A stretch of DNA of 64,000 nucleotides from a virus. Below, one piece after another: positions 34,661-51,085 of this stretch. Every line of letters begins with the position of its first letter. Positions within the stretch are counted from its first letter, which is position 1. The notes under the pieces were generated by a model. The model was given only the letters and a program-made list of their open reading frames with translations, searched no databases and was not told the origin of the DNA. The stretch covers positions 62,001 to 126,000 of IMG/VR virus record IMGVR_UViG_3300031857_000002. One strand, given 5' to 3'. The translations under genes and the position numbers were made by a program.

Positions 34661-34994
34661 TGAAGAATTTTGGCAAGCTCTAAGAGACATGCCCGAGCCC
34701 AAACCTGTTGATTATAGAATCTACTACAACGAACAAGGTGAGTTGTTATTCTACAGCATGGAAGATGTGCCAGGTACATACTTGACTATTGATGCAGAGA
34801 CCTTTTCCCGTAGTGCAACCAATGTAATTGTGCAAGATGGCCAGCTGTTTGAGATCATCAACGCAACTACAGCAAAACTAGAACACTCAGACACAGGTAC
34901 ACCTTGTGACCCCGATGATGTGTGCATTGTAGTACCTGAAACACAACAACACCAAAGATGGAGCAAACAAAGACATGGCCTTAAACCAAATTGA
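34653..34994 (+). CDS. hypothetical acidic protein (113 aa)
   Basis: An upstream in-frame GTG/TTG-type start at 34608 is possible, but the ATG at 34653 has AAGGAG at 34640-34645 and overlaps the previous stop as its neighbours do, so I prefer it. 113 residues, beginning MTDEEFWQALRDMPEPKP. The central part is beta-like (YRIYYNEQGELLFYSMEDVP) and the end basic (HQRWSKQRHG). No known motif. It lies between glycosyltransferase-like genes, which hints at a shared pathway but shows no function. Confidence 0.6.
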   Translation: MTDEEFWQALRDMPEPKPVDYRIYYNEQGELLFYSMEDVPGTYLTIDAETFSRSATNVIVQDGQLFEIINATTAKLEHSDTGTPCDPDDVCIVVPETQQHQRWSKQRHGLKPN

Positions 34995-35907
34995 TGTAGC
35001 AGACTTAGACTGCATTTACTTGACATATGATGAACCTGAGAAAGAAGAATTCTGGGTAAAAATACGCAACATGGTGCCTTGGGCCAAACGTGTGGACGGA
35101 GTCAAAGGCAGTGATGCCGCACACAAGGCAGCCGCTGCCGCTAGCGACACAGAACGTTTTATTCTTATTGACGGCGACAACATGCCGGATCCTGAGTTCT
35201 TCAATCAGACATTGACATTTCCCACAGCAGAATATGAACAAGCAGTATTTAGATGGAGAGCTCGTAATCACATCAACGGACTCATGTACGGCAATGGCGG
35301 CTTGAGCTCATGGACTAGAACGTTTGTGAACCGCATGCGCACACACGAAGCCACTGATGGACGCACAGAAACTGAAGTAGAGTTTTGTTTCGATCCGCTA
35401 TACTGGCCCATGTATGACTGCTACTCCACAACCTATCCCAATGGGTCGGCGTTTCATGCATGGCGTGCCGGTTTCCGAGAAGGTGTAAAGATGTGCCTAA
35501 ACAAAGGTGCCCGGCCCACAGTAGAAGACTTCAAAGAACAAGCGCACCGGAAGAATCTAGAGAACTTGACCATCTGGCACAACGTGGGCACAGATGTTGA
35601 ATACGGAGAGTGGGCCATAATGGGCGCACGCCAGGGCACATACATGACCATGCTCACAGGATGGGATCATCGAGACGTACAGAGTTTTGATGCACTAGCA
35701 GAGCTGTGGGAAACTGTAAAAAACAGTCAGCCCAGAATGATCAGCAATCAACTGGGACCTGAACTGGGCACACAACTGGATTTGCCCATGGCCATACTAG
35801 AAAGTGAACAAAGTGTTTTTTTCAAACGTCACTATCGTAGCAACTGGCACAATCAAGGCATAATGACACGCGAAATTGATGTTATCCGTCGACAGGAAGG
35901 ATGGTAA
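34975..35907 (+). CDS. phage glycosyltransferase-like protein (GT-A-type, DGD motif)
   Basis: 310 residues. N-terminal LDCIYLTYDEPEKEEFW and WAKRVDGVKG are the opening of a phage family of GT-A-like transferases; RFILIDGDNMPDPEFF (about 62-77) supplies the DxD-like site. Then RNHINGLMYGNGGLSSW and PNGSAFHAWRAGFREGVKM follow. The same order is found at the C-terminus of the repeat protein at 54337 (NGLVYGHQAM, WMAWRTAFREVLKLK), so the two are homologous. Cytosolic, soluble. A weak GGAG lies 13 bases before the ATG, which overlaps the previous gene by 20 bases. Confidence 0.6.
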   Translation: MALNQIDVADLDCIYLTYDEPEKEEFWVKIRNMVPWAKRVDGVKGSDAAHKAAAAASDTERFILIDGDNMPDPEFFNQTLTFPTAEYEQAVFRWRARNHINGLMYGNGGLSSWTRTFVNRMRTHEATDGRTETEVEFCFDPLYWPMYDCYSTTYPNGSAFHAWRAGFREGVKMCLNKGARPTVEDFKEQAHRKNLENLTIWHNVGTDVEYGEWAIMGARQGTYMTMLTGWDHRDVQSFDALAELWETVKNSQPRMISNQLGPELGTQLDLPMAILESEQSVFFKRHYRSNWHNQGIMTREIDVIRRQEGW

Positions 35908-36572
35908 TGCTAACTGTTTTTGAAAATACAGTAACCTCTGCTGAAATAGCAAATATGCAACAGCAGTTCAGTCACTTACATACCACTGTTAAATTTACTG
36001 ATACGTATCATATTACATCTCGTGAAGAAATACATGAACTTTATAACTCAAACGCAGAATCATTGATTCAACAACAACGTATTGACATACATACGCATCC
36101 GATTGCAGATGTTGTTAGGAATATAGTTAATAGGATTTTACCGTCGCCGTTGAATTTGTCAGTTCCTATACTTTTTTCAAGATCAGTTTATCCTATTGGA
36201 ATTCATATTGATTCAAACAAGAAAGAGCATAATGGACACACTCTAATGATTCCGTTGACGTTTGACACACGTATCAAGACACTAGTATGGAAAGAAACTG
36301 CTATTGATCCAATTGCACTGAATGAGATATTTTATCGTTTTCAACACAATATTAAATCGTTTACATTACAGCCAAAAATTTCTAACAGATTTGATTTAAG
36401 AAACTGTTGGCTAGGAACACCATCCATTGTGGATTTTTTAGAACTAGATGGAATAGCCGAATGGCAAGAAGGATCTATATTTAAATTTAATCGTCAACAA
36501 TTGCATGCCAGTAATAACTTCAAGGCATCTGTAGAGTTTAAAGATTACGTCTTGATACATAATAATGAATAA
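35907..36572 (+). CDS. 2-oxoglutarate/Fe(II) oxygenase-like protein
   Basis: About 221 residues from the ATG at 35907. An ATG at 35901 is in frame, but the Shine-Dalgarno AGGAAGG (35894-35900) would then touch it, so I favour 35907, in the TAATG of the previous stop. YPIGIHIDSNKKEHNGHT (about 100-117) gives the HxD pair. FNRQQLHASNNFKASVEFKD near the end supplies the distal His and a basic residue, the order expected for a double-stranded beta-helix dioxygenase. The gene is visibly more AT-rich than its neighbours, suggesting separate acquisition. Substrate unknown; hydroxylation of the material being glycosylated is possible. Confidence 0.55.
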   Translation: MLTVFENTVTSAEIANMQQQFSHLHTTVKFTDTYHITSREEIHELYNSNAESLIQQQRIDIHTHPIADVVRNIVNRILPSPLNLSVPILFSRSVYPIGIHIDSNKKEHNGHTLMIPLTFDTRIKTLVWKETAIDPIALNEIFYRFQHNIKSFTLQPKISNRFDLRNCWLGTPSIVDFLELDGIAEWQEGSIFKFNRQQLHASNNFKASVEFKDYVLIHNNE

Positions 36573-37944
36573 CAAGAGTAATTTTATGAGCTCAGCAGAG
36601 CAAATGAAAGAGGATTTAGGTTCTGCACTATGCCTTGCCAAATGGAAACAGGTCAGTTTGCACTTGCCCACAGGGCTCAACAACTCTTGTTACCATCCGC
36701 CGCTGCATCAGATCACTGCAGATGACTTGACACGTACAGGCGGCCTGCATAATACAGCACACAAGAAGGCACAACGTGTGATGATGATACAGGGCGAAAA
36801 ACCTGCTGAATGTCAGTACTGCTGGAACATGGAAAGCCTGGATAAACTAAGCGATAGACATTATCGTTCTGGTGAGCCCTGGGCTGCTGTGGATCTGGAT
36901 CGCATTAAAAACTCTACAGGCATGGAAGATGATGTTGTTCCCAGTTACGTAGAAGTCAACTTCAACCATGCTTGCAATCTAAAGTGTAGCTATTGCTCGC
37001 CGCAGTTTAGTAGCAGTTGGCAGGACGAAATAGAACGACTGGGTGCGTACCCTACATCAAAGCCGCACAATGCACCAGAGCACTTTATGGGCAACCGCAG
37101 ACCCATACCTGCACGTGAAGCCAATCCTTATGTGGATGCGTTTTGGGAATGGTGGCCCACACTATATCCACAGCTGGAACACTTTCGTATGACCGGAGGC
37201 GAACCGCTAATGGATCGGAATACCTATAGAGTGTTTGATTATGTGCTAGAGCACCCTAGTCCCAAGCTACACCTGAATGTCACAAGTAACTTTTCAGTAG
37301 AAGATGTGTTGTTTGAAAAGTACATGGGCTACGCTAAAAATCTATGTACACCCAACATAGAGCACTTCATGCAGTATGTTAGCCTGGACTCGGGCATTGC
37401 CACACAAGCAGAATACCTACGCCACGGCCTGGACTATGCTCGCATGAGTCGCAATGTTGAACGTTTCTTAACTGAAGTTCCTACTCGTAACAGCCTAACG
37501 TTTATTATCACAATGAACAATTTGAGTGTTACAGGCATGCAACCCATGCTGGAATGGATCTTAAACCTACGCAAGACGCACAGCAGTACATACCAACGTG
37601 TGTGGTTTGATACTCCTGTACTGCGTGAACCTGCGTGGCAGAGTCTACAAATCTTGCCCGAAAGCTACGTGGCGCAACTGGAACGTGCCAAAGACTATAT
37701 GCTGGCTAACTTGATCACAGATGCCAATCCCTTACACGGATTTAAAGATTATGAAGTACAACGGCTAGAACGTGACATTGCCTGGATGCGCGAAGGACAA
37801 TCACAAGATAATAACACAGCAAAGGCAGACTTCTATCGTTTCTTTGCGGAACACGACCGTCGTAGAGGCACGGACTTTTTGCGATCCTTTCCTGAAATGC
37901 GCTCCTGGTGGGCAGAATGCGAGTATCATGCTAGGACAGCATAA
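36565..37944 (+). CDS. radical SAM protein 1 (N-terminal Cys cluster type)
   Basis: 459 residues. CNLKCSYC at residues 137-144 is the canonical CX3CX2C [4Fe-4S]-SAM motif; MTGGEPLMD follows as the SAM-binding GGE. Before the core there is an accessory Cys region: ALCLAKWKQVS, NSCYHPPLH and ECQYCWNME. Such Cys-rich clusters usually lie after the core in SPASM/twitch enzymes, so this one is permuted. A C-terminal motif DRRRGTDFLRSFPEM recurs in the related proteins at 39030, 41641 and 48750. It overlaps both neighbours. Reaction unknown: C-H activation on a peptide or sugar is known for the superfamily. Confidence 0.85.
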   Translation: MNNKSNFMSSAEQMKEDLGSALCLAKWKQVSLHLPTGLNNSCYHPPLHQITADDLTRTGGLHNTAHKKAQRVMMIQGEKPAECQYCWNMESLDKLSDRHYRSGEPWAAVDLDRIKNSTGMEDDVVPSYVEVNFNHACNLKCSYCSPQFSSSWQDEIERLGAYPTSKPHNAPEHFMGNRRPIPAREANPYVDAFWEWWPTLYPQLEHFRMTGGEPLMDRNTYRVFDYVLEHPSPKLHLNVTSNFSVEDVLFEKYMGYAKNLCTPNIEHFMQYVSLDSGIATQAEYLRHGLDYARMSRNVERFLTEVPTRNSLTFIITMNNLSVTGMQPMLEWILNLRKTHSSTYQRVWFDTPVLREPAWQSLQILPESYVAQLERAKDYMLANLITDANPLHGFKDYEVQRLERDIAWMREGQSQDNNTAKADFYRFFAEHDRRRGTDFLRSFPEMRSWWAECEYHARTA

Positions 37945-39064
37945 GCTCATAATTGATGAGTGGGCAGAAGTAGTAGACTTGTTGGACCCATATGCCGACG
38001 GGGAATTCTGGACCTGGGCAGATGTTGACTTTGATCCCGCTTGTGTATACATTGTGGGCAGGGTTGTGCTTAAAGATAATTGGCAAGTGATAATAGACTT
38101 GGCCACACAATATCCTGGACGCATTGTGTTCTGTAATCCTGCTGAAGGGTCAGAAACCATCTTGTTACAACTCCGACGCCTGCGTATAGAACCACATGTG
38201 CGTGACGGCCGTATCTTGCTGTTGACATCCGGTGATCTAGAACCCGGGTGGAATCAGATGAGTACAGACTGTTACTTTACCAACATAGTGGACTACACAG
38301 AAAACCAGTCAGCACAGTCACAGGCAGCACTAGACTATAAACAACACAGACCCTACGAGTTTCTATTCTTAAATGGACGACTGCGTCCACATCGCAAAGC
38401 TCTAATAGACGGCCTGCGAGATCAACGGCTATTAGCAAACGCATTGTGGACCAATTTGGGCAGTCATGTAGAAATGGCATTTACTTCCCAACTAGAAACT
38501 CTTGCCACAGAACCCATACGTTTGCTGCCGCCTGAATATGAAATAGAACGTGCTCGTGATAAACTAGCACCCGAGCTATATGCCCGTGGTGGATTTATCA
38601 AACATGAACTGTTTAGCAACACCTGGGGCGATGCTATAGTTAACCCATGTTGCTACACAGACACCTGGTACAGTCTAGTAACAGAAACCATATTTGATTA
38701 CCCACATTCATTTAGAACAGAAAAAATCTACAAGCCCATTTTGATGGCACATCCATTTGTGGTCGCTGCCAACTCTGGCTACTTACGAGACTTGCGTAAC
38801 GCAGGATTTCAGACGTTTGATAGCATAATAGATGAACGCTACGACCAAATTGATTGCCCGCACACACGAATACAGCGTATAATAGAAACAGTGCGGTCGA
38901 TCAGTTGTGGCGGCGCTGAACATTTCTGGGAGGCCTCACGTGACATCTGTAAATACAATCAACAACATCTTGTGGAGTACAATCGCAAACAGCGTACCCT
39001 GCTCCCACAACAATTAGAGCAATTTTTAAATGAACGATCTAGAATTCCGTCAACAACATCTTGA
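37928..39064 (+). CDS. glycosyltransferase/exostosin-like protein with EKxxKPI module
   Basis: The frame is open from 37772, but that part lies inside the preceding radical SAM gene; the ATG at 37928 is the likely start (378 residues). YEFLFLNGRLRPHRKALIDG (about 140-159) opens the second half. The C-terminus has SFRTEKIYKPILMAHPFVV, LRDLRNAGFQTFDSIIDERY and a helical end. The same C-terminal module occurs in the proteins at 52094 and 53232, giving three paralogues. The family is found in phages beside sugar genes and resembles GT-B-type transferases. No DxD is needed for such a fold. The specific donor is unknown. The stop overlaps the next gene by 35 bases. Confidence 0.6.
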   Translation: MLGQHKLIIDEWAEVVDLLDPYADGEFWTWADVDFDPACVYIVGRVVLKDNWQVIIDLATQYPGRIVFCNPAEGSETILLQLRRLRIEPHVRDGRILLLTSGDLEPGWNQMSTDCYFTNIVDYTENQSAQSQAALDYKQHRPYEFLFLNGRLRPHRKALIDGLRDQRLLANALWTNLGSHVEMAFTSQLETLATEPIRLLPPEYEIERARDKLAPELYARGGFIKHELFSNTWGDAIVNPCCYTDTWYSLVTETIFDYPHSFRTEKIYKPILMAHPFVVAANSGYLRDLRNAGFQTFDSIIDERYDQIDCPHTRIQRIIETVRSISCGGAEHFWEASRDICKYNQQHLVEYNRKQRTLLPQQLEQFLNERSRIPSTTS

Positions 39065-40358
39065 CACCAAGTCAGCTAGTTTTTGCGCAGCCAAATGGTA
39101 CAATGCCACAATATGGCTGGGATCGGGACAGACCACAAGTTGCCATCACCCGCCAGCACATCATGTGACTGAAAAAGAAGTAATTATTAATCCTGCTGCC
39201 TTGCACAACACCAAGCAAAAACGTGATGATCGTGCAAAAATGCTGTCAGGTGAACGTCCAGCAGGTTGTGAATACTGCTGGAAGATTGAAGACATGGGCC
39301 GTGATGCTATTAGCGACCGTGTGTATAAATCACGAATATATCCTATAGAATCATTAAATGAAGCATTTGCTACTCCTGTACATGAAGATGTCAACCTACG
39401 CACCTTGGAAATTGCTTTTGATCGCACTTGCCAGCTTGCTTGCAGTTATTGTAACCCTGCATTTTCAAGCACTTGGGTCAATGATATCAAACGACACGGA
39501 CCTTATATTAAGCTGGAGTCAGATGGTCGCAACCACTTTACTCATGAGCATAATAGTGCTCAACTTTATAAATTCGGTGAGGATAATCCTTACGTCAACG
39601 CCTTCTTTGAATGGTGGGAAACAGACCTCCATCGAACCTTACAAGAACTAAGAATCACAGGCGGCGAGCCCTTGATGTCAGGTTATACTTGGAAGCTGAT
39701 AGACTGGTTCAAATTGAACCAAGGCAAGTCCAATACAAAACTAGCTATTAACTCAAATTTGAGTTTTGAAACTGAAAAGCTCACTGAGTTCATTGACGCC
39801 ATCCGTCCACTTCCGCATGTGGAACTGTACACCTCAATGGAAGCAGTAGGACGCCAGGCCGAATACATACGTGATGGTCTAGACTATGCACAATGGCTGA
39901 CCAACATGCACACGCTGTTAAGCAGTAACACAGTAAAAGCAGTTCATGTGATGTGTACAATCAATGCACTATGCTTGACCACCCTGCCTGAACTACTGGA
40001 TCAGTTGTTGGAAATGAAGCGCACATACGGGCGCGAGCGTGTGAACTTTACATTAAATATATTACGATTCCCTAGCTTTCAATCAGCACTAGTATTACCC
40101 AATGAACTACGCAATCAATTCCGGGACAACTTACAAGCCTGGGCAAACGCCAACAAAAATGATCCTGTGTTGCACGAGCACGAAATCAATCATACACAAC
40201 GTCTAATAGACTATTTGGATGTGGTCAAAACACCGCATTCAGACACATTTGAAATGCCCAAGTTGCATAATGATTTCCGTGAATTTTACACACAGTACGA
40301 TTCTCGTAGAAATCACAACTTTGCAACGACATTTCCTGAATTAAAGAAATTGCTATGA
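39030..40358 (+). CDS. radical SAM protein 2 (N-terminal Cys cluster type)
   Basis: 442 residues. CQLACSYC at 134-141 is the cluster motif, with ITGGEPLMSG as the GGE segment. The N-terminal accessory region contains SFCAAKWYNATIW, TTSCHHPPAHH and GCEYCWKIED, aligning with radical SAM protein 1. The end has DSRRNHNFATTFPELKK, again the shared C-terminal signature. It overlaps the glycosyltransferase-like gene upstream and the next radical SAM gene (ATGA). Its closest relative in the window is the protein at 36565, so at least one duplication has happened inside the cluster. Confidence 0.85.
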   Translation: MNDLEFRQQHLDTKSASFCAAKWYNATIWLGSGQTTSCHHPPAHHVTEKEVIINPAALHNTKQKRDDRAKMLSGERPAGCEYCWKIEDMGRDAISDRVYKSRIYPIESLNEAFATPVHEDVNLRTLEIAFDRTCQLACSYCNPAFSSTWVNDIKRHGPYIKLESDGRNHFTHEHNSAQLYKFGEDNPYVNAFFEWWETDLHRTLQELRITGGEPLMSGYTWKLIDWFKLNQGKSNTKLAINSNLSFETEKLTEFIDAIRPLPHVELYTSMEAVGRQAEYIRDGLDYAQWLTNMHTLLSSNTVKAVHVMCTINALCLTTLPELLDQLLEMKRTYGRERVNFTLNILRFPSFQSALVLPNELRNQFRDNLQAWANANKNDPVLHEHEINHTQRLIDYLDVVKTPHSDTFEMPKLHNDFREFYTQYDSRRNHNFATTFPELKKLL

Positions 40359-41644
40359 CACAATACAAATACAACAGCAGTGATCTAGTTCGCGGCAATA
40401 TGTCAGAATTAACTGAACGTGAGCATTTTCTTTTAACAGAATCTAAAACATTCTGCATTTATCCTTGGATTCATTTACATGCTTATCCCACAGGCGAAGC
40501 ATATCCTTGCTGTCATGCTGAAATGGGTGTGGGACAAATTGGTAATTGCCGTACAAACACATTAAAAGAAATATGGAATAGTCCTGCACAAAAGAAACTA
40601 CGCACAGACATGCTGTCAGAAACACCCAATGCTGCCTGTGGACGTTGTTACGAACAGGAAAAGTCTGGCTTCTTTACAGGGCGCCAGAGTGCAAACAAAC
40701 ATCATGGGCATCATGTGGACCGTGTGCATTCTACAGATAGCACAGGGCAAGTTGATCAATTTGAAATGACCTATTGGGATATCCGTTTCTCAAACCTATG
40801 CAATTTAAAGTGCCGTAGTTGTGGGCATATCTTTAGTTCACAGTGGTATCAAGATCAAGCAAAATTAGCCGGCGGCGACTGGAAAGATCGCAACACAGTA
40901 CTAAACTACGCAGGCCGTACAGAAACCGACATGTGGGAACAACTAGAGCCCCATTTAGACTATGTAGAACAGATCTACTTTGCTGGTGGCGAACCCTTGT
41001 TGATGGAAGAACACTATCATATTCTTGATGAATTGGTCAAGCGCGGCCGCTTTGATGTGCGACTGATATACAACACCAACTTCACGCACACAGACCTTAA
41101 AGGGCGCAGTGTGTTTGAATACTGGAAACAATTTAAATCAGTTGCTGTAGGTGCCAGTCTGGATGCACACGGAGCACCAGCAGAGTACATACGCAAAGGC
41201 ACAGTATGGCGAGACGTAATAAAGAACCGTCATGACATGTTGCGCATTTGTCCCCAAGTGGACTTTTACATTTCGCCCACACTCAGCATATTAAATGCAC
41301 GACACTTGCCTGGATTCCATCGTGAATGGGTTGCTGCCGGACTGCTACGCCCACAGGATCTAAACGTAAACATCCTACAAGACCCTGCGTATTTGCGCAT
41401 AGACATTGCGCCGCCTGAATACAAAGCAGAACTAATCCAACTGTATCAACAGCATATTTTGTGGTTGCAAGGCCAAGACCCCTTGGGCCGTGCTACACAA
41501 GGATTTGAATCAGCTATCAACTATCTGCAGGCCACTGATAACTCGCATCTAATACCTAAATTCTGGGCCAAAACCCATGAACTAGATGCAATTAGAAAAG
41601 AAAACATCCTGGAGGTTATTCCTGAATTGGCAGCATTAAAATGA
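40355..41644 (+). CDS. radical SAM protein 3 (SPASM-like domain placed N-terminally)
   Basis: 429 residues. Residues about 33-102 read like a SPASM/twitch domain: TFCIYPWIHLHAYPTGEAYP followed by CC, then IGNCRTNTLKEIWNS and CGRCYEQE. The radical SAM core comes after it: CNLKCRSC at 149-156 and FAGGEPLLMEEH. In ordinary SPASM enzymes (for example anaerobic sulfatase maturases or peptide-modifying enzymes) the order is core then SPASM, so this is reversed. Both the auxiliary and the SAM cluster ligands are intact. Coupled by ATGA to genes on both sides. The substrate is not visible. Confidence 0.85.
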   Translation: MTQYKYNSSDLVRGNMSELTEREHFLLTESKTFCIYPWIHLHAYPTGEAYPCCHAEMGVGQIGNCRTNTLKEIWNSPAQKKLRTDMLSETPNAACGRCYEQEKSGFFTGRQSANKHHGHHVDRVHSTDSTGQVDQFEMTYWDIRFSNLCNLKCRSCGHIFSSQWYQDQAKLAGGDWKDRNTVLNYAGRTETDMWEQLEPHLDYVEQIYFAGGEPLLMEEHYHILDELVKRGRFDVRLIYNTNFTHTDLKGRSVFEYWKQFKSVAVGASLDAHGAPAEYIRKGTVWRDVIKNRHDMLRICPQVDFYISPTLSILNARHLPGFHREWVAAGLLRPQDLNVNILQDPAYLRIDIAPPEYKAELIQLYQQHILWLQGQDPLGRATQGFESAINYLQATDNSHLIPKFWAKTHELDAIRKENILEVIPELAALK

Positions 41645-43023
41645 GCACCTGGCAGGAATTTTATTCAGCAGTACGAGCCCCGCAGTGGCCCGACTGTGAT
41701 CACGAAGAAAATTTCACACAGCTTCCTGAGTTAATTCAATTGGAATGCATCAATCAATTTGGCTATGTGCCAAATAGTTTTCAAAATAAATCCAAGTTGG
41801 TTAACAAACGTTTTCCAATTGTGAGCAACACAGCTTGCCAGCTCAAATGGACCTGGAGCACTATATATCTAACCACCGAAAACACAGCCAGTTGTCACAG
41901 GACCAATCATCATCAGTTTGGGGATGACTTTGATTTTCATAACACAGCCAGTAAAATAGATGATCGTAAGAGAATGCTTGATGGCAAATGGCCCACAAAA
42001 GGATGTACCTACTGTCAAGATATTGAAACAGCCGGTGGACAAAGTGATCGAATCACAAACTTGAATTTTCCAGGAATTCATGCGCCTCCTGAACTGGATC
42101 AGAATCCTGTGGCAGTGCATGTTACTCCTAGAATACTGGAAGTGTACTTTGACAACACTTGCAATTTAAAATGTCTTTATTGCGGTCCGCACTTTAGCAG
42201 TTTATGGGACGCTGAGAATGTGCGGCATGGTGTGCCCGCATTTGCCAAGAGCAAAAATATTGAAAGCAACAAACAAAAACTATTTGAATGGTTAAAACTT
42301 CACGGGCACACGCTCACAGTGTTTAACATCCTAGGTGGCGAACCCTTATATCAGCCCGAATTAGAACAAGTGCTTGCACTGTTTGAACAGCATCCGGCAC
42401 CCGAGCTTAAACTACAAATGTTCACAAATTTAAATGCTCGATTGCCATACTTGCAAAAAATAATTCAACGAGTTCGAAAGCTAATTGACCGTGGTTGCAT
42501 TAGAGAATTTGAAATAACTGCCAGTCTAGACTGTTGGGGTGCGCCGCAAGAGTATGTGCGATATCCCCTAAACTTGCAAGAGTGGGAACGGAATTTTGAA
42601 TACCTGCTGGATCAATCCTGGATCAATTTGATCATAAACTCAACTGTGACTCCATTGACTGTGAAAACACTGCCAGACTTATTGGAAAAAATAAATCATT
42701 GGAATCATAAACGAAAAGTCTATCACTATCAAAACTCTGTGAACGATCCTGACCATATGTTCATTGATCTGTTTGGAGGTATATTTCAACAAGACTTTGA
42801 TCGTGCCATTGAATTAAAACCTGCACAAACGCCAGAAGAAATTGCCAGCAAGAATTATCTAATAGGTATAGCAAAACAAAGCCGCCACGGTGGACCCAAA
42901 CCAAAACAAATACGTCAACTGTTTAATTTTTTAAATACAATGGATCAAAGACGCAACACACATTGGCCCACTGTATTTCCTTGGTTGGTTGATGAATTTA
43001 AAAAATATAACTTAACACTATGA
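41641..43023 (+). CDS. radical SAM protein 4 (N-terminal Cys cluster type)
   Basis: 460 residues. CNLKCLYC at 174-181, with ILGGEPLYQPE as the GGE segment. The N-terminus is about 45 residues longer than in its relatives and includes WQEFYSAVRAPQWPDCDHEE. The accessory motifs follow: ACQLKWTWSTIYLTTENTAS with CHRTN, and GCTYCQDIETAGGQSDR. Its closest relative is the protein at 48750 (both share ITASLD/ITGSLD, WGAPQEYVRYPL-like motifs and a PWL-type end). The shared MDQRRNTHWPTVFPWL motif marks the C-terminus. ATGA overlaps on both sides. Confidence 0.85.
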   Translation: MSTWQEFYSAVRAPQWPDCDHEENFTQLPELIQLECINQFGYVPNSFQNKSKLVNKRFPIVSNTACQLKWTWSTIYLTTENTASCHRTNHHQFGDDFDFHNTASKIDDRKRMLDGKWPTKGCTYCQDIETAGGQSDRITNLNFPGIHAPPELDQNPVAVHVTPRILEVYFDNTCNLKCLYCGPHFSSLWDAENVRHGVPAFAKSKNIESNKQKLFEWLKLHGHTLTVFNILGGEPLYQPELEQVLALFEQHPAPELKLQMFTNLNARLPYLQKIIQRVRKLIDRGCIREFEITASLDCWGAPQEYVRYPLNLQEWERNFEYLLDQSWINLIINSTVTPLTVKTLPDLLEKINHWNHKRKVYHYQNSVNDPDHMFIDLFGGIFQQDFDRAIELKPAQTPEEIASKNYLIGIAKQSRHGGPKPKQIRQLFNFLNTMDQRRNTHWPTVFPWLVDEFKKYNLTL

Positions 43024-43604
43024 ATGGACTAGCACTAGGTTGTAGCCACACAGCAGGAGTTGGGGTTGATCCCTCAGAATGCTATGTGTCATTGTTGGCT
43101 AAACACTATAACATTAACATTATCAATACTGGAGTTCCTGGCGGCAATGCAAATCACAGTATTGAAACTCTAGTAGCCCACATGCGCAACACTCCGCCTA
43201 AGTTTGTTATAGCACAATGGCCCAATCCCATTAGACGCACTATTTGGCATGGTCATCGTGCCAACAATGAAAATGTAAGTACTGCTGGTGTTGCGTTTCG
43301 TTCTTTATTGGCCGCTGGTGAAAAAAACTTTATTCTACCCTGGTTACAAAATATTATAACAGCTGACACATTGTGTAAACTGGCAGATGTGCCGATTGTT
43401 CACATTCTATTGGAAAATTTAGATTTAAAATATGTTGATATATTGAACAATCAAGGCATAGAGTTACACATGGATTTAAAATTAGAAGGCCGGACTTGGT
43501 TGTTTGATTCGCAAGGGTCGGACAATTTGCACCATTCAGCTCGATGTCATGCCCAATGGGCCGAAAGATTAATTGGATTATTAGATGAAATTACCACACG
43601 ATAA
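43020..43604 (+). CDS. SGNH/GDSL hydrolase-like protein
   Basis: 194 residues. The start LALGCSHTAGVGVDPSECYV shows a GxSH block I version, with Ser as the presumed nucleophile. NTGVPGGNANHSIETLVAHM gives the Gly/Asn block II-III, and DNLHHSARCHAQWAERL near the end provides a late His. SGNH proteins act as esterases or acyl transferases, including O-acetyl removal or addition on glycans. No signal peptide, so it would act in the cytosol. ATGA overlap upstream; the downstream radical SAM gene starts 20 bases before its stop. The enzyme class is fairly likely, the substrate unknown. Confidence 0.6.
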   Translation: MNGLALGCSHTAGVGVDPSECYVSLLAKHYNINIINTGVPGGNANHSIETLVAHMRNTPPKFVIAQWPNPIRRTIWHGHRANNENVSTAGVAFRSLLAAGEKNFILPWLQNIITADTLCKLADVPIVHILLENLDLKYVDILNNQGIELHMDLKLEGRTWLFDSQGSDNLHHSARCHAQWAERLIGLLDEITTR

Positions 43605-44802
43605 ATTTTGCGTGTTACCTTGGGTCAGCCTAGAAGCCAGCCCCATTGGTACAGTACGTCCTTGTTGCTTAGCCGACGATGAGTTGGTTGATGACACAGG
43701 CGAGAAGTTCAGCTTGCTCACTGCTGACTTTGCTGACATACAAAACTCAGCCAGCATGCGTGGCCTACGTGAGCAGTTTCTAGCAGGAGAAAAGCCACAA
43801 ACATGTCGCAAATGCTGGATGGAAGAACGTGCAGGACGCACATCAAAACGCATGCACACTCTGGACCGAATGAAGCACATGGGCATTAGTTCAGACTGGA
43901 CAGCAGATGCCAAACCCTTGATGTTCTTAGATCTAAAGCTGGGCAACATTTGCAACTTGAAATGCCGTATTTGTGGATCCTGGAGTTCAAGTCAATTTGC
44001 CACAGAAGAAATCAATCAATTGCCCCGTGAAGAACAAAAACAATCATTTCCCTATCAGATGCTACGAGCCGGAGCATGGCCTAGAGAAAATGAAACTTTC
44101 TGGAACGAAATTGATCAGTGCTTAAATGACATACGTTATATTGAATTCACAGGCGGCGAGCCATTCATGATTGATCAACACTTTGTGATGTTGCAGGGCA
44201 TTGTGGATCGCGGTATTGCACATCAAGTGGAAATACATTACAATACAAATGGCACACACTATCCCGAGCAGGCCGAGCACATTTGGAAGCATTTTAAAAC
44301 AGTGGAAATAGCATTCTCTATTGATGACGTGGGTGAGCGTTTTGAATATCAGCGTAGCAATGCTGTGTGGACAGAAGTATGTGCCAATCTAGATCGTTTC
44401 CGTGATTTGAAAGAAATCCATTCCAATATTGTGCTACAAGTATGCACCACTGTGAATGTGTTTAATGTGCGCTACCTAGGCGAAGTTGCTGAGTGGATAG
44501 AAAAGAATCGTGACACATTTAATTTTGTGTACTGGAACATGATGCACGATGCTTGGTATTTTTCCATTGCCACATTACCTGATGTGGCCAAAGCAGCCAT
44601 TACAGAATATTTAGACTCAGTGGATACCATTTATAGAGATGAATTTGATCGCATAAGAGACTTTATGAACCGTGGTGCTTCGACAGATGGCAACATCCTG
44701 CGTATGCGTGTGCGTGATCTAGACCGTAAACGTGCGCAGAATCTTGCCACGGTAGAACCAGAATTTGCAGAATTAATTGATTATGACTACAACAAAACCT
44801 GA
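43585..44802 (+). CDS. radical SAM protein 5 (SPASM-like domain placed N-terminally)
   Basis: 405 residues. The N-terminal KFCVLPWVSLEASPIGTVRP is followed by CC, and TCRKCWMEERAGRTSKR closes the auxiliary domain at about residue 83. The core follows: CNLKCRIC at 123-130 and FTGGEPFMID. Later motifs are HYNTNGTHYPEQ and VQVCTTVNVFNVRYL-like segments. Closest in layout to the proteins at 40355 and 44783. The ATG lies within the SGNH gene, and the stop overlaps the next radical SAM gene, so four radical SAM or hydrolase genes in a row are translationally coupled. Confidence 0.85.
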   Translation: MKLPHDKFCVLPWVSLEASPIGTVRPCCLADDELVDDTGEKFSLLTADFADIQNSASMRGLREQFLAGEKPQTCRKCWMEERAGRTSKRMHTLDRMKHMGISSDWTADAKPLMFLDLKLGNICNLKCRICGSWSSSQFATEEINQLPREEQKQSFPYQMLRAGAWPRENETFWNEIDQCLNDIRYIEFTGGEPFMIDQHFVMLQGIVDRGIAHQVEIHYNTNGTHYPEQAEHIWKHFKTVEIAFSIDDVGERFEYQRSNAVWTEVCANLDRFRDLKEIHSNIVLQVCTTVNVFNVRYLGEVAEWIEKNRDTFNFVYWNMMHDAWYFSIATLPDVAKAAITEYLDSVDTIYRDEFDRIRDFMNRGASTDGNILRMRVRDLDRKRAQNLATVEPEFAELIDYDYNKT

Positions 44803-46123
44803 CACCTTGTGCATGGCGCCATGGACGCACACATATCTGAGCCCGCAAACTGAGCGTAGAATGTGTTGTGCCAGTCGCGAGCCTGCACAAAACTTTGAAC
44901 AATATATAGACACAGCCGCAGGCACAGGTGTATACACGCCGATGTCGTTGGATGAACACTGGAATTCAGATCACATGAAGTCAGTGCGTCGTAGAATGAT
45001 GTCAGGAGAAACTTTGCCCGAATGCGATGTATGCAATTCAAAGCTGTTGAACACTGATGTGTATCGCAATTACTTTTGGTATTTGTTCAAACACAAATAC
45101 AGTGAAATAGCTACCACAACAGATGAAACAGGCCATACCACCATGCAGCCTGTAAGCTGGGATTATCGATTCTCTAATCTTTGCAATTTTAAATGTAGAA
45201 CATGTGGCGACATGCTGAGTTCAAGCTGGGAAACAGAGCAAAAGAAACACAACACCATTCACTGGGCCGACTCCAAAAACAACTGGATGTTGCCGGCTGT
45301 GCGTGATCAAATTTCAGCATTTCAAGACAGTCAAATTGAAGCAGAATTTGCTGAGGCCGTGGAACAACATCGTATAGAAGAAATATACTGGGTAGGTGGT
45401 GAGCCGTTAATGTATGAACAGCACTGGCGCTACATGAAACGCATAGTAGAGCTGGGCGATGGACCTAGAGTATATGCACGTTACAACACCAATCTGTCTA
45501 GAGTAGAATATAAAGGTATCAATCTTTACACAGACATTCTTGCGCACATACGTGATTGGCAAATTTGTGCCAGCTTAGACGGCACAGGTGCTGTGGGCGA
45601 ATACATACGCACTGGATTAAACTACGCAGAGTTTTTGGAAAACTTCAAGCAAGGCCAACATCATGCTCGCAAAACATTTAGAACGTTTAATGCCAAACAA
45701 ATGCGCTTGGACTTTACATTGACTCTGCCGGGCATGTTTGAAATTGCCAACATGGAAAAGTTGGCACGTGAACTAGATGTGGATTTGCTGACCAAGGTAA
45801 TCTTTAGCTTTGGCCCAGAAATTGTAATGAGTCCATTATGCTTGCCCCGTTCTTTATTGGAACCTTGGATAGATGAGTCACTGGCACAATGTCAAACCAG
45901 GGTCATGCGCGAAATGCTGGAGCAACTAAAGAAAAGACCCACGTTTGAAGAACAATGGCCAGATGAATACGCTGAAGGCATTCGACAAGGCAAAGCTCGT
46001 GTGTTACAGCTAGAAAGCATACGCACAGCGCCTACAGACATGGCTTCTATCCTGGCCCAGCGCCCAGAAATTAAACAATGGTGGGATCAAATTGCCGCCG
46101 TTCGTCGCTATGAAACAGATTAA
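44783..46123 (+). CDS. radical SAM protein 6 (SPASM-like domain placed N-terminally)
   Basis: An in-frame TTG lies at 44777, but the ATG at 44783 (MTTTKPDTLCMAPWTHTYL) is the better start; 446 residues. The auxiliary N-terminal part includes RRMCCASREP, SLDEHWNSDHMKSVRRRMM and ECDVCN. The core has CNFKCRTC at 134-141 and WVGGEPLMYEQH. ASLDGTGAVGEYIRTGLNYA corresponds to the ASLDAHGAPAEYIRKG region of protein 3. The C-terminal region is long and helical. Overlaps upstream and downstream genes by 20 and 14 bases. Confidence 0.85.
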   Translation: MTTTKPDTLCMAPWTHTYLSPQTERRMCCASREPAQNFEQYIDTAAGTGVYTPMSLDEHWNSDHMKSVRRRMMSGETLPECDVCNSKLLNTDVYRNYFWYLFKHKYSEIATTTDETGHTTMQPVSWDYRFSNLCNFKCRTCGDMLSSSWETEQKKHNTIHWADSKNNWMLPAVRDQISAFQDSQIEAEFAEAVEQHRIEEIYWVGGEPLMYEQHWRYMKRIVELGDGPRVYARYNTNLSRVEYKGINLYTDILAHIRDWQICASLDGTGAVGEYIRTGLNYAEFLENFKQGQHHARKTFRTFNAKQMRLDFTLTLPGMFEIANMEKLARELDVDLLTKVIFSFGPEIVMSPLCLPRSLLEPWIDESLAQCQTRVMREMLEQLKKRPTFEEQWPDEYAEGIRQGKARVLQLESIRTAPTDMASILAQRPEIKQWWDQIAAVRRYETD

Positions 46124-47177
46124 AATAACTCTACGTGACTTTGCAACAGGCGATTTGTTGCCTGTGTACATAGATGTTGCAGACAACAGTCTAAGCCGCC
46201 GTTGGTTAACAGCACTAAATGAATTATTGCAAAACAATTATCATTTGGAAAAGAACTACTGCTGGTTTGGCTGGCCCAACGGTCCACGCACAGCAGAATA
46301 TATCTGTGATCAAATAAATCAATCAATTGCTGCCATTAATTTAGCCGATATGGGCTATCAAATTACAGATCATTTTGATACCTTGAATACCATTACAGCA
46401 GGTGCTGTGGGAGAAGGCCTGCCAGGCGGCAAACTCATACACGATAAACTAAACTGGTTGCATCGTTATTTTGAAGATTTACAAGGCGTTTCAGGTTCAA
46501 TGAGTCCATTTTACACTCGTGCTGATGCTGCCACACGCTGGCATATCCGACAGTTAAATCTCTTGTGTCACGAATACGAAAGTCTAGTGCTGAGCATGCG
46601 CAAGGCACAACACGCACCTGAATGGGTGCGCCCTAGCCAACTCATGTGTTGGCTAAATGCTCCACGTTTTGAACTAGAACCCGAAGACTACGAACTGTTT
46701 GGTATAGAAACAATCAATCGCAGCCTGGGCGGTGTGTATGCGGGAGTTAACAAAGCAGTAGGTAAGCATCACTGGGAAGTGTTCCATGACGAAGGGCGTG
46801 ACAGTCGTATTGACGAATTAACTACCACAAGTCTAAGAGCACAAACAGAAGCCGCAGGAGATTTTGATATAGAGTGGGCAAGAGATCCTGGCAAGTTCCA
46901 TTGGCAACAACAGCAGTTGAATGAGTTTCGAGACTGGCTAGTAGCCAATGGATTTGATCCCGACAACAAAGCACTCACAATAGGACATCCCAAAGTGGCG
47001 CAAGTTGATTTACTCAAGAGCTTTGGTACAGAAGATCACACAGAAATATGGTGTCAATTGAATGATCATTTAGACGTGTATAAAATAGAGACTGATCAGT
47101 GCGAAGCTACATACAACTATCACTGGAGCGACGCAGACTTTAAACAACGACAAATCCAGTGCATACAAGGAGCATAA
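46110..47177 (+). CDS. hypothetical protein found within the radical SAM cluster (355 aa)
   Basis: A TTG at 46092 is in frame, but the ATG at 46110 (MKQIKITLRDFATGDLLPVY) gives a clean N-terminus. 355 residues, soluble, rich in Trp, His and Asp. NYCWFGWPNGPRTAEYICDQ, LPGGKLIHDKLNWLHRYFED and WLNAPRFELEPEDYELFGIE are the most distinctive segments. I recognise no enzyme motif. Its fixed place between radical SAM protein 6 and the carbamoyltransferase, with a 14-base overlap upstream, points to a role in the same pathway, perhaps as a carrier or partner protein. That is inference only. Confidence 0.65.
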   Translation: MKQIKITLRDFATGDLLPVYIDVADNSLSRRWLTALNELLQNNYHLEKNYCWFGWPNGPRTAEYICDQINQSIAAINLADMGYQITDHFDTLNTITAGAVGEGLPGGKLIHDKLNWLHRYFEDLQGVSGSMSPFYTRADAATRWHIRQLNLLCHEYESLVLSMRKAQHAPEWVRPSQLMCWLNAPRFELEPEDYELFGIETINRSLGGVYAGVNKAVGKHHWEVFHDEGRDSRIDELTTTSLRAQTEAAGDFDIEWARDPGKFHWQQQQLNEFRDWLVANGFDPDNKALTIGHPKVAQVDLLKSFGTEDHTEIWCQLNDHLDVYKIETDQCEATYNYHWSDADFKQRQIQCIQGA

Positions 47178-47179
47178 TA

Positions 47180-47281
47180 ATGAACTGGATTAAAAACTTA
47201 TACCATAGAATTCGATTAGAAATTCGTTATCGTCGCAAGCTAAAAGAACTGCGCAAAAGAGACCCATTTATCTACAAATGA
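47180..47281 (+). CDS. very small basic protein (33 aa)
   Basis: ATG at 47180 with AAGGAG eight bases upstream, ending in ATGA that overlaps the carbamoyltransferase start. It begins MNWIKNLYHRIRLEIRYRRK and ends RDPFIYK: 33 residues, about one third Arg/Lys, predicted to be a single amphipathic helix. It is shorter than the usual cutoff for automatic gene calling. The ribosome site and both-sided spacing make it convincing. Function unknown; a nucleic-acid or membrane-surface binding helix is possible. Confidence 0.65.
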   Translation: MNWIKNLYHRIRLEIRYRRKLKELRKRDPFIYK

Positions 47282-48753
47282 AAATACTGGGAATTTCAGC
47301 AGGTTTTCACGACGCTGCCGCTACTGTGCTCCAGGATGGCAATATTCTTTTTGCTGGACATTCAGAACGATACTCAAAGCAAAAGAATGATGCCAACATA
47401 CATGCAGATCTACTAAAGGATGCACTGACACACAGAATAGATCATGTGGCCTATTACGAACGTCCGTGGCTGAAACAACTGCGTCAGTGGTATGCAGGAC
47501 AGGGTATTGAGTGGGATAAAATAACACTAAAACAGGTGCTGGAAAAACAGGTGCCTGAAGCCATGCAGTACATGCCTGCCACAAGCACACACAATCATCA
47601 TGCTTGCCATGCGGCAGCAGGATTCCAAACAAGCCCATACGATCGTGCCACTGTGGTGGTAATAGATGCAGTAGGCGAGTTTGACACAATAACAATCTGG
47701 GCGGCTGAATATGATTCAAAAGGCATGGCAAAGTATCGAAAACTTTGGGCACAACATTATCCACATTCAATTGGACTGTTCTACTCTGCGGCTACTAGCA
47801 GTGTTGGCCTACGCCCATTAGACGAAGAGTACATCTTGATGGGTATGGCCGCTTATGGCAATGCTATACAAGCGGTTAGCATGCAAAAACTAGTTGAAGA
47901 TTCAGATCAAATAAGATTCCGTGATAATCTACACACAGGAATAGACAGTCGATATCTGCAGGATCTTGAAGAATTTGATATTGCCTCTGGCGCACAAGCC
48001 ATTGCAGAACAACTAATCAACAGCGTCATGCGCAGAGCACGTGACTTCAAATTCAGCACTAATTTAGTTTACATGGGCGGCGTTGCTCTTAACTGTAGTG
48101 CTAACCGTAATTTAGGAAAGTATTTTGATAACATATGGATTATGCCTTGTCCTAGCGACGCTGGCAGTAGCCTGGGTGCGGCAGCACTGGCATACAGGAA
48201 ACAGATACATTGGACCAATGCCTACTTGGGTCGCAATATCCCTGGTGATTATCCTGTGGACGATATTATCACTGGCCTGCTACATGATAAAATTGTGGGT
48301 GTGGCCAGTGGTCGTGCCGAATTTGGGCCCAGGGCTCTGGGCAATAGATCACTATTGGCAGACCCCCGTGGCGCAGACATAAAAGATCGTGTGAATGACA
48401 TCAAGCGCAGACAGCAATTCAGACCGTTTGCGCCAGTCATTTTGGAGGAGCATGTTGATATGTATTTTGATATGCCTCATGGCTTCCATAACAGTAGGTA
48501 TATGCAAGTCATTGCTCGCTGTAGGCATCCTCACATATTTCCTGCTATCGTTCATAAGGACGGCACTAGTAGGGTACAGACTGTTCCCCAAGACGGATCG
48601 GGTATAAGGCAGCTACTAGAAGCATGGTACCGGGCAACAGGTTGTCCTATGTTGCTTAACACAAGTCTTAACATACGTGGAGAACCCATGGTAAATGATC
48701 GCGCAGACGCTGATAGATTTGAACAATTATACAGAGTAAAAGTCTGCTCATGA
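47278..48753 (+). CDS. carbamoyltransferase, NodU/CmcH family
   Basis: 491 residues, slightly shorter than the usual 550-600. The N-terminal Kae1-like domain shows ILGISAGFHDAAATVLQDG, the HNHHACHAAAGF metal-binding His motif (about 102-113) and VVVIDAVGEFDTITIW. YMGGVALNCSANR and GSSLGAAALAYR follow, and the C-terminal YrdC-like domain has GRAEFGPRALGNRSLLADPR and LLNTSLNIRGEPMV. The family uses carbamoyl phosphate and ATP to carbamoylate a hydroxyl group on sugars or natural products (Nod factor in NodU). In this cluster a sugar hydroxyl is the likely acceptor. Coupled by ATGA on both sides. Confidence 0.95.
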   Translation: MKILGISAGFHDAAATVLQDGNILFAGHSERYSKQKNDANIHADLLKDALTHRIDHVAYYERPWLKQLRQWYAGQGIEWDKITLKQVLEKQVPEAMQYMPATSTHNHHACHAAAGFQTSPYDRATVVVIDAVGEFDTITIWAAEYDSKGMAKYRKLWAQHYPHSIGLFYSAATSSVGLRPLDEEYILMGMAAYGNAIQAVSMQKLVEDSDQIRFRDNLHTGIDSRYLQDLEEFDIASGAQAIAEQLINSVMRRARDFKFSTNLVYMGGVALNCSANRNLGKYFDNIWIMPCPSDAGSSLGAAALAYRKQIHWTNAYLGRNIPGDYPVDDIITGLLHDKIVGVASGRAEFGPRALGNRSLLADPRGADIKDRVNDIKRRQQFRPFAPVILEEHVDMYFDMPHGFHNSRYMQVIARCRHPHIFPAIVHKDGTSRVQTVPQDGSGIRQLLEAWYRATGCPMLLNTSLNIRGEPMVNDRADADRFEQLYRVKVCS

Positions 48754-50024
48754 GCGATAAAGTATTTCCAATAAAGAGTGACACAGCCTGTTTGTTAAAA
48801 TGGGCGTGGTCAACAGTGTATCTAGGGCAGGGCACAAGCTCTAGTTGTCATAGAACAGATCAAGCACCTATTCCTGTAGACAACTTTGCGAGTTTTCACA
48901 ATCTACCCAATAAAGTACGTGCTAGAGAAATGATGCGTCGTGGAGAATGGCCACAAGAAGGCTGTCAGTACTGTGAAAAGATTGAGGCAGCAGGCGGACT
49001 CAGTGATAGACAATATCAATTAAAAGCTGGACACGAACGAGACCGCACTCCTGAAGAATTAATTGTTGATCCAGAAACAAATGAAGTAGTGCCCACTATC
49101 TTAGAAGTGTACTTCAGCAACGTGTGTAACATGGCTTGCTTGTACTGCGGAAGTCACTTTAGTACAAAATGGGAAGAAGAAAACAAAAGATTTGGCATAT
49201 TTGAACAAGGGCGTGTGAAGTTTGGATTTAATCAGCCCTCAAACCCCAATTACGAAAAACAACTGGCAGACTTTTGGCAGTATCTAGAAGATAAAGATCG
49301 CTATAAACACATACGCTACTATCAGATCTTGGGCGGGGAACCGTTCTTTCAAAAGGAATTTGATACCAGCTTGGACTTCTGGGAAGCACACCCTAACCCT
49401 GAACTAACGTTCAATATCATTACCAACTTGAAAGTGCCCACAAAGAAGTTCCGAGCATATATTGATCGCTTTGGGGCAATGGTTGAATCAGGTGCGTTGA
49501 AAAGATTACAAATTACAGGCAGCTTAGACGCATGGGGACCGCAAGAAGAATATGTACGCTGGGGACTAGACTTGGCTGAATGGCAAGAGAACTGGGAATA
49601 TCTCTTGGATAAAGACTGGGTTGTGATGTGTATGAATACAGCTATTAGTGCATTGACAATCAAAACACTTCCTGATCTAGTGGAACGCATTAATGGCTGG
49701 AACGCTAGACGCAATCCCTGGAATCCCATCAGCTTCAGTTTTATGAGTGTAATGACACCGCCCGAAATGGTTCCGGACATATTTGGTGCAGGTGTATTTG
49801 ATCAGGATTTTGAGCGTGTGTTAGCAGCCATGCCCACAGACAAGCCAGGATCCCAAGATGCACGTGAACACATGGCAGGCATCATGCGACAGATATCTGC
49901 AGGCCCACGTGATGTTTCACGTATAGAAGATCTAAAGGTTTATTTGACTGAAATAGATCGACGCAGAGGAACCCGTTGGCAAGACTTGTTCCCTTGGCTG
50001 GATCAGCCTTTTATTGTGGTATGA
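48750..50024 (+). CDS. radical SAM protein 7 (N-terminal Cys cluster type)
   Basis: 424 residues. CNMACLYC at 126-133 and ILGGEPFFQKEF as the GGE segment. The N-terminal accessory region ACLLKWAWSTVYLGQGTSSS is followed by CHRTD and GCQYCEKIEAAGGLSDRQY; it aligns closely with radical SAM protein 4. ITGSLDAWGPQEEYVRWGLD and the C-terminal TEIDRRRGTRWQDLFPWL also correspond. It ends convergently with the minus-strand radical SAM gene, overlapping it by 22 bases. Together with proteins 1, 2 and 4 it forms one subfamily. Confidence 0.85.
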   Translation: MSDKVFPIKSDTACLLKWAWSTVYLGQGTSSSCHRTDQAPIPVDNFASFHNLPNKVRAREMMRRGEWPQEGCQYCEKIEAAGGLSDRQYQLKAGHERDRTPEELIVDPETNEVVPTILEVYFSNVCNMACLYCGSHFSTKWEEENKRFGIFEQGRVKFGFNQPSNPNYEKQLADFWQYLEDKDRYKHIRYYQILGGEPFFQKEFDTSLDFWEAHPNPELTFNIITNLKVPTKKFRAYIDRFGAMVESGALKRLQITGSLDAWGPQEEYVRWGLDLAEWQENWEYLLDKDWVVMCMNTAISALTIKTLPDLVERINGWNARRNPWNPISFSFMSVMTPPEMVPDIFGAGVFDQDFERVLAAMPTDKPGSQDAREHMAGIMRQISAGPRDVSRIEDLKVYLTEIDRRRGTRWQDLFPWLDQPFIVV

Positions 50025-51085
50025 TTGTCTGTGGGATTGACTTGTTGATCAACGCCCAGGAACTGCTGTAATCCAGAAGAAAAGAATATGTGAAACGAGT
50101 ACTTTTCGTAGGTTTCACGTAAAAATTCAGCAGCCGCTATATGCTCAGGATTGTCGGGGTCGAGCACATCATGCTCGCTGAAGTCGTGCCATGTGCCCCA
50201 ATCTTCTAGCTTGGTAATGCTGCCAATAAATCCAAAATACAAACACAGTTCACAAAAGTTCTTCATGTCTCTGTAGTTGTTTTTTTGCATGACCATTGTG
50301 AGTGCTACATTATGACTGGAACCGTCGGGTTTACTGGTGTTTTCTTTGAGGAATATAAAGTTATCCATGAGCTGTTCCCAGCGTCCGCCCAGTCTAACTT
50401 GTTCATACACATCTGCTGAACCTGCATCTATGCTAATCAAATATTCGTCAATGTGCGCTGTAACAGGATTGTCTGTGAGTTGTTTGCGCAATAACAAGCC
50501 ATTAGTAAACAGTTTGATCCACTGCTTTTCGCGTGGTTTGTATCTGTGTAGCAACGGACGCATGATACTGCTGGCAAGTGGATCGCCATTGCCACTCATG
50601 ATAATTCTGCAAGGTTGTTCAAACTGCTCTAGCATGTCCACTAGATGATTGACCCATGCTAGCTTTTCTTCGTATTTGTCACCACTGGTAATCATTACAG
50701 CATCTTTTCTACAGCTGGGACAATGTAAATTACAGCTTTCATCTATGTTGATACTGATAGTGTATTCAGTTTCAACCATGTCATAGTGCATGACACCACA
50801 ACGTGTGACAGCACAGTTATCAAATGTTCGGTTGTCAATGCTTTGTTGTAGAGCCTGTGCTGTAGGGCTGGCCCACACATCTTCCAGTCGTACAAAGTCT
50901 GTGATTTTGCCCACACTGATAGGCAACCACAGTTCACAACCACACACAAAACAATCGCCTTTCCAATCTACTAGCAGTTTCCTACTGGGTGCGTTACAGT
51001 GATGATCTACCTGTAACTTCAAGTCCTTGTTACGTGGAACAGTGTTCCAGTGAAACTGATTTTCAATTGGAATAACAAACTTCAT
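50003..51085 (-). CDS. radical SAM protein 8 (distinct subtype)
   Basis: The frame opens at 51133, but the ATG at 51085 (MKFVIPIENQFHW) overlaps the upstream stop as ATGA and is preferred; 360 residues. CNLHCPSC at 118-125 is the cluster motif. GGE is replaced by MSGNGDPLASSIM, where NGDP takes the place of GGEP. DYLI-like strands lead to YLISIDAGSADVYEQVRLGG. The N-terminal region carries CNAPSRKLLVDWKGDCFVCG, a short Cys-rich SPASM-like segment. It differs from the other seven in strand, length and GGE variant, and pairs with the amidinotransferase. It could act on the amidino-modified product or on an independent substrate. Confidence 0.82.
   Translation of the reverse strand: MKFVIPIENQFHWNTVPRNKDLKLQVDHHCNAPSRKLLVDWKGDCFVCGCELWLPISVGKITDFVRLEDVWASPTAQALQQSIDNRTFDNCAVTRCGVMHYDMVETEYTISINIDESCNLHCPSCRKDAVMITSGDKYEEKLAWVNHLVDMLEQFEQPCRIIMSGNGDPLASSIMRPLLHRYKPREKQWIKLFTNGLLLRKQLTDNPVTAHIDEYLISIDAGSADVYEQVRLGGRWEQLMDNFIFLKENTSKPDGSSHNVALTMVMQKNNYRDMKNFCELCLYFGFIGSITKLEDWGTWHDFSEHDVLDPDNPEHIAAAEFLRETYEKYSFHIFFSSGLQQFLGVDQQVNPTDNHTTIKG

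Follow-up and report, generated by a model that had tools for sequence, protein, structure and literature searches.

An ordered operon with a core of five radical SAM genes in a jumbo phage, possibly for tailoring a surface glycan

The operon, its genes and its promoter

The window, a 64,000-nucleotide stretch, belongs to an IMG/VR virus record of 320,175 bases that is clearly a phage, as it encodes T4-like head proteins (portal, protease and major head protein) as well as baseplate and tail genes. On shared structural genes it is classed as a predicted jumbo myovirus of the PBECO4/Atu_ph07-like kind; a29, a gene of the structural region, shows 58% identity to Phosso, 53% to Atu_ph07 and about 45% to PBECO4-type phages. 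The record also encodes IscU (about 310.3 kb) and IscA (about 308.2 kb), kept in nine and ten of ten phage records, respectively.

The genes of interest are listed in Table 1. A first-pass annotation had placed the cluster at 36565-51085; the cluster is real, but the conserved block extends past both ends, from about 32786 to about 59753. Its genes do overlap as first described, by 4-53 bases (tool starts) rather than 4-35, and the chain is unbroken from 33088 to 47177. A single 100-base gap (47178-47277) lies ahead of the carbamoyltransferase gene, and R7 and R8 are convergent, sharing 22 bases. The start of gtC is probably the ATG at 37928 rather than the GTG at 37772, with which the gene overlaps its neighbour by 173 bases.

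Table 1. Features in and next to the operon, in window coordinates
Feature	Positions	Strand	Basis or remark
TATAAATA, late-type promoter motif	29924..29931	+	upstream of tail-fibre gene b30
b30, probable tail fibre/virion structural protein	29957..31747	+	N-terminus PHROG virion-structural match; tail-fibre reading by eye
c32, probable virion protein, Ser/Thr 29%	31765..32730	+	putative acceptor
Intrinsic terminator, stem-loop and T-rich tail	32735..32756	+	after c32; conserved in IMG/VR relatives
Sigma70-like promoter, TTTACT-17-TACAAT	32751..32779	+	6 nt ahead of ATG 32786
w32786, first gene of operon, no assigned function	32786..33091	+	
d33, GT-A-like glycosyltransferase	33088..33918	+	motif only
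gtA, GT-A-like glycosyltransferase	33875..34660	+	motif only
gtB, GT-A-like	34975..35907	+	DGDN motif; homologues adjoin N_Twi rSAMs in Bacteriovoracales
2OG-oxygenase-like, cassette	35901..36572	+	motif only
R1, N-twitch rSAM, core	36565..37944	+	motif, profile, order, tree
gtC, GT-B glycosyltransferase, core	37928..39064	+	fold
R2, N-twitch rSAM, core	39030..40358	+	motif, profile, order, tree
R3, N-twitch rSAM, core	40355..41644	+	motif, profile, order, tree
R4, N-twitch rSAM, cassette, sister of R7	41641..43023	+	profile, tree
SGNH-like, cassette	43020..43604	+	motif only
R5, N-twitch rSAM, core	43585..44802	+	motif, profile, order, tree
R6, N-twitch rSAM, core	44777..46123	+	motif, profile, order, tree
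u46, core, no assigned function	46092..47177	+	fold without PDB match
Carbamoyltransferase, NodU/TobZ type	47278..48753	+	Pfam domains
R7, N-twitch rSAM, cassette	48750..50024	+	profile, tree
R8, SPASM-type rSAM, cassette	50003..51133	-	profiles
Amidinotransferase, AGAT/StrB type	51082..52101	-	phmmer, Cys/His motifs
gtD, gtC-like GT-B	52094..53248	-	
gtE, gtC-like GT-B	53232..54338	-	
rep54, tandem-repeat protein	54337..57735	+	gtB-like C-terminus, by eye
DegT/DnrJ/EryC1 aminotransferase	57704..58834	-	
NAD-dependent sugar epimerase/dehydratase	58761..59753	-	

Judged by motif and profile, the eight radical SAM (rSAM) genes first noted, seven on the plus strand and one on the minus strand, are all real. 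The CX3CX2C motif is intact in every one of the eight reading frames and each product matches Radical_SAM (PF04055), R2 weakly (E = 0.003). The whole record holds 21 PF04055 matches, R2 not among them, giving about 22 rSAM genes, so that the initial figure of eight is correct for the operon and too low for the phage. Seven products exceed the 170-bit cut-off of the N-terminal-twitch family (NCBIfam NF033640, N_Twi_rSAM), with 297 bits for R1, 318 for R2, 400 for R3, 223 for R4, 328 for R5, 280 for R6 and 226 for R7. They share seven invariant cysteines, three of the rSAM motif and four N-terminal, and a GGEP motif. R8 reaches only 20 bits and is, by its profiles, a SPASM-type enzyme outside this family. 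Viperin-type defence was ruled out, as NF038283 scores do not exceed 32 bits against a cut-off of 180. In this record a further rSAM gene, R9, comes 36 nt after the major capsid gene; a capsid-tied role was rejected because its best relatives elsewhere sit far from that gene, and R9 is taken as an independent, scattered acquisition, like R4, R7 and R8. No experimental work on the N-twitch family was found in the open-access literature.

Among the partner enzymes, gtC has the fold of a GT-B glycosyltransferase, which bears out its original label: its top Foldseek matches are the GT-B enzymes TreT, WaaG, PglA and POGLUT1, with probabilities up to 0.99 and a modest TM-score of about 0.40. Both gtD and gtE are relatives of gtC. 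DxD-like motifs occur in gtA, gtB and d33, and a gtB profile found no meaningful match among PDB sequences; for these three and rep54, glycosyltransferase activity is predicted from motifs only. The carbamoyltransferase label also held, with matches to both Pfam domains (N-terminal 2.3e-35, C-terminal 1.5e-48) and a score below the NodU equivalog cut-off. The amidinotransferase matches AGAT, StrB and SxtG by phmmer. Its Cys and His motifs are kept in 39 sequences and the catalytic Asp is not evident; at what we take to be the AGAT position of this residue, it appears replaced. The motifs behind the earlier SGNH and 2OG-oxygenase-like labels are plausible, but neither gene has a Pfam match. The u46 protein is confidently modelled (pLDDT 85) and its model has no fold match in the PDB, so a function by fold was not obtained; its fold relatives among viral proteins come from phages only, Atu_ph07 included.

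Between the tail genes and the operon stand a terminator and a second promoter. The -10 hexamer of this promoter lies 5-9 nt upstream of the start in 45 of 45 distinct sequences (5-7 nt in 43), and in three marine relatives the hexamer at this spacing reads TATAAT. With the control pattern, it was found ahead of 32 of 35 copies of w32786, and for any other gene in the tally ahead of 0-3 copies. The late-type motif TATAAATA occurs in five of eight b30 upstream regions and ahead of none of the other genes tallied. The operon apparently has its own conserved sigma70-like promoter and would be leaderless. Since this promoter, and not TATAAATA, would serve it behind a terminator, its expression does not just follow that of the tail genes, and plain late co-transcription is unsupported; early or late timing is a point that we infer.

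Such a promoter would favour an earlier action on the host, as expression need not await the late phase. The same pathway might then modify the host envelope: the LPS or capsule of the infected cell would be remodelled, for instance to shut out rival phages. This idea has already been put forward for islands of related phages (PMC7029224, PMC7824862). Other parts of the record encode an epimerase and an HldE-like kinase and cytidylyltransferase, which fit this reading. It is nevertheless somewhat unlikely. The locus is fixed in position behind the tail genes, and the initiating transferase (PF02397) and the flippase Wzx (PF01943) were found in none of ten phage records, which disfavours an autonomous lipid-linked polysaccharide (Wzx/Wzy) locus and means that the lipid-linked route of the host would be needed.

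A fixed core and exchangeable cassettes

Relatives were collected from IMG/VR with R3 as query (209, of which 80 were fetched) and with u46 (16). The core order gtB-R1-gtC-R2-R3-R5-R6-u46-carbamoyltransferase-(amidinotransferase)-gtE-rep54 is held in 85 of 86 distinct related layouts, and the gene set behaves as a single pathway, as originally suggested. The counts below take in a gene only where it falls within the span from the first to the last core gene detected at a locus. These two end genes are present by construction, whereas inner genes are not; R3 and u46 are partly so, because loci were chosen through them. The rSAM genes are present as R1 81/81, R2 84/84, R3 86/86, R5 86/86 and R6 83/83, the glycosyltransferase-type genes as gtB 72/72, gtC 80/83 and gtE 36/36, and the others as u46 77/77, rep54 25/25, carbamoyltransferase 72/72 and amidinotransferase 49/57. 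The core rSAMs are therefore five (R1, R2, R3, R5 and R6). The eight rSAMs do not form one set, as had been thought: R4, R7 and R8 are exchangeable cassettes, as are the SGNH-like and oxygenase-like genes.

Insertions occur mainly between gtB and R1, R3 and R5, R5 and R6, and the carbamoyltransferase and amidinotransferase. These slots hold SGNH-like genes, extra glycosyltransferases of the gtC/D/E type, extra rSAMs and epimerases; genes confirmed by Pfam include an AMP-binding enzyme (AMP-ligase), an epimerase, FkbM and class-I methyltransferases, GT25 and a Trp halogenase (E = 4.5e-91). The major head protein is 90-98% identical in the eight relatives where one was found while the slots differ, so turnover is much quicker in the cassettes than in the capsid. 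Bacterial antigen loci likewise diversify; here this takes place through cassette exchange between fixed core genes.

Amidino-, carbamoyl- and aminotransferases in the company of rSAMs recall aminoglycoside clusters. With a halogenase and an AMP-ligase in the slots of relatives, the operon might instead yield a diffusible, aminocyclitol-like secondary metabolite acting on the host or on competitors; such a product has been proposed for cyanophage S-SSM6a (PMC7824862). We hold this to be very doubtful. An exporter or resistance gene was not recognised in the block examined, and the link to the tail is constant, with tail genes adjoining the operon wherever a locus extends that far.

Marine and bacterial counterparts

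A genome scan recovered marine contigs, placed in MAGs, with the phage order b30-c32-d33-gtA-gtB-R1-R2-R3-R6-R5; a scan with R3 orthologues alone gave no matches. The Bacteriovoracaceae contig UBA6144 carries homologues in the order R2, R6, R5, R3, R5, R1, R2, R1, next to obg-, rpmA- and rplU-like genes (by eye). Identities to the phage proteins are 31-50% for R1, 48-50% for R2, 41% for R3, 43% for R6 and 26-36% for R5. The same five families thus lie side by side, as in the phage, but on a chromosome and in another order. In the stretch examined no carbamoyltransferase was found. The order that contains UBA6144 has 58 of 116 genomes above the NF033640 cut-off, against none of 14 controls, and in some Bacteriovoracales clusters N_Twi rSAMs adjoin gtB homologues, GT2 and a UDP-sugar dehydrogenase.

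R1, R2, R3, R5 and R6 each form their own clade in a tree built from 108 rSAMs, and every one of these clades unites phages from IMG/VR and from marine contigs with a homologue from Bacteriovoracaceae; R4 and R7 pair with each other in this phage. SH-aLRT values on the branches holding bacterial members vary from 87 to 98%. Separate clades common to phages and Bacteriovoracaceae indicate that the rSAM set is old and non-redundant. Scattered, independent acquisition, which the first-pass annotation had named as the contrary case, describes R4, R7 and R8; the core escapes it by its order and its five shared clades.

No glycosyltransferase was recognised among the neighbours of the rSAM set in UBA6144, and this speaks against glycan tailoring. 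It would suit rSAMs that act directly on protein or peptide side chains in the manner of RiPP maturases, with the glycan enzymes partly separate; c32 and b30 are adjoining Ser/Thr-rich candidates, and many SPASM rSAMs are peptide maturases. This explanation is nonetheless unlikely. All scores against RiPP-maturase models (StsB, PapB, mycofactocin and others) fall far below the curated NCBIfam cut-offs, no conserved small precursor gene (at least 80 aa) was noticed between the core genes, and glycosyltransferase, DegT, carbamoyl- and amidinotransferase genes constantly accompany the rSAMs.

A putative glycan-tailoring pathway

The presence of carbamoyl-, amidino- and DegT aminotransferase, epimerase and gtC in one conserved block with five rSAMs points to a glycan pathway; taken with the cassette arrangement and the setting in bacteria, this enzyme company points to a tailored aminosugar glycan. 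The best reading is an aminosugar-type tailored surface glycan with the phage tail as favoured acceptor, owing to the placement of the operon, and the host envelope next. We put a phage-encoded tailoring pathway of this kind, with the phage's own tail proteins favoured, at a probability of roughly 0.4; as in the original suggestion of virion, host surface or peptide, the decorated target is one that we infer.

In such a pathway the epimerase and DegT enzyme would make aminosugars, to which the carbamoyl- and amidinotransferase would attach groups. GT-A-like (d33, gtA, gtB, rep54) and GT-B (gtC, gtD, gtE) enzymes would move them onto the acceptor. BtrN, NeoN and SpeY are SPASM/twitch rSAMs acting on aminocyclitols; by analogy, each of the five core rSAMs may alter a single C-H position, whether by epimerisation, by dehydrogenation or by deoxygenation. 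Cassette enzymes would vary the product from phage to phage. The acceptor could be b30, c32 or a 4775-aa protein, which would receive the glycan in the cytoplasm, ahead of virion assembly.

So high a count of rSAM genes is not new, contrary to the initial impression, since rSAM-rich phages have been published. The isolated Aeromonas phage 332-Vera (Chimallinviridae; PQ474292) has eight in a structural cluster with baseplate and tail fibres; the likeness rests on the published description, and the relevant passage proposes no pathway (PMC12390700). The 183-kb T4-like marine genome TARA_ERS488813_N000010 has 12 and an A-type Fe-S carrier gene, and the part of the source dealing with them does not describe a core set, operon order or glycan link (PMC5332604). 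The host recognition cluster of pelagimyophages and cyanomyophages is a hypervariable island of tail fibres, glycosyltransferases and rSAM cassettes (PMC7029224), in contrast to the strictly ordered five-rSAM core, fixed slots and own promoter found here. The sugar/amino-acid cluster of S-SSM6a has carbamoyltransferases (about 28% identical to that of the operon), a halogenase and oxygenases, and no rSAM core is described for it (PMC7824862). A tblastn search with R1, gtB and c32 against 50,697 phage records gave no match. Nor did the open-access literature yield a description of the core of five rSAMs, of the fixed gene order with its slots, of the counterpart in bacteria or of the promoter. 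It is tentatively suggested that five distinct N-twitch rSAMs, as a fixed set, would form a new pathway to a radical-modified glycan common to Bacteriovoracales and jumbo phages, each phage reshaping the product through its cassette slots.

A single genome, whether of a phage or of a bacterium, can hold many N-twitch members. The minimal co-inherited set of R1, R2, R3, R5 and R6 is a bounded pathway that biochemists could reconstitute. A common enzyme set ties large phages to Bacteriovoracaceae, and the operon represents a surface-type locus that diversifies through cassette swaps between fixed core genes.

The gtE/rep54 junction

The gene for a gtC-like GT-B protein (gtE, minus strand) and the tandem-repeat gene that comes last in the conserved gene order (rep54, plus strand) share the CATG of their start codons. 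This overlap is conserved in 17 of 22 relatives and leaves no room between the genes for promoters. The rep54 repeats take the form D(Y/F)SWxPxPxxPPYIYVFGNQW, and by eye the C-terminal part of the protein looks like gtB, a GT-A-like gene product assigned by motif only. No match to rep54 was found in phages by tblastn, nor did any Pfam family match it.

Radical SAM proteins outside the phage

Radical SAM (rSAM) proteins of the N-twitch family (NF033640, cut-off 170 bits) are greatly expanded in the order of Bacteriovoracaceae UBA6144, where 58 of 116 genomes exceed the cut-off and many hold at least a dozen matches. In Paenibacillus sp. (L123), an N-twitch rSAM resembling R3 of the operon lies within what appears by eye to be a fatty-acid/polyketide-like biosynthetic cluster. 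Phage-like contigs with the phage rSAM cluster (L118-L122, L129) sit in MAGs whose labels include Pelagibacter, Verrucomicrobia, Flavobacterium and Pacearchaeota, placements that are probably binning errors.

Other features of the record and of a related phage

Features and their positions (L-numbers, stretches of this record or of related loci)
Feature	Position	Strand	Remarks
4775-aa single ORF	window 14833-29160		FG-GAP repeat match
Shared CATG	window 54335-54339		gtE/rep54 start codons
rep54	window 54337-57735	plus	~10 tandem repeats, ~65-aa spacing
R9, R2-clade rSAM	L010:9316-11979 (record 39.3-42.0 kb)		immediately after major capsid gene
TATAAT	record 61971 (L011)	minus
TATAAT	record 140987 (L012)	plus
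PfkB-kinase half, cytidylyltransferase half (HldE-like), epimerase	L012:7194-9412		near R13
IscA, IscU (phage-encoded)	L017:8160-10757 (record 308.2-310.8 kb)		two rSAM genes adjoin
Trp_halogenase homologue	L052:18484-19728		E = 4.5e-91; in slot of related jumbo phage

The giant ORF is flanked by baseplate genes on one side and tail-fibre genes on the other. In relatives, R9's position directly behind the major capsid gene was not observed. Another gene run with an rSAM gene, and R14, a further rSAM gene, also have TATAAT 6-8 nt before the ATG. Almost every related phage record tested retains IscA and IscU, and the HldE-like halves with the epimerase near the rSAM gene R13 suggest a supply of activated heptose.
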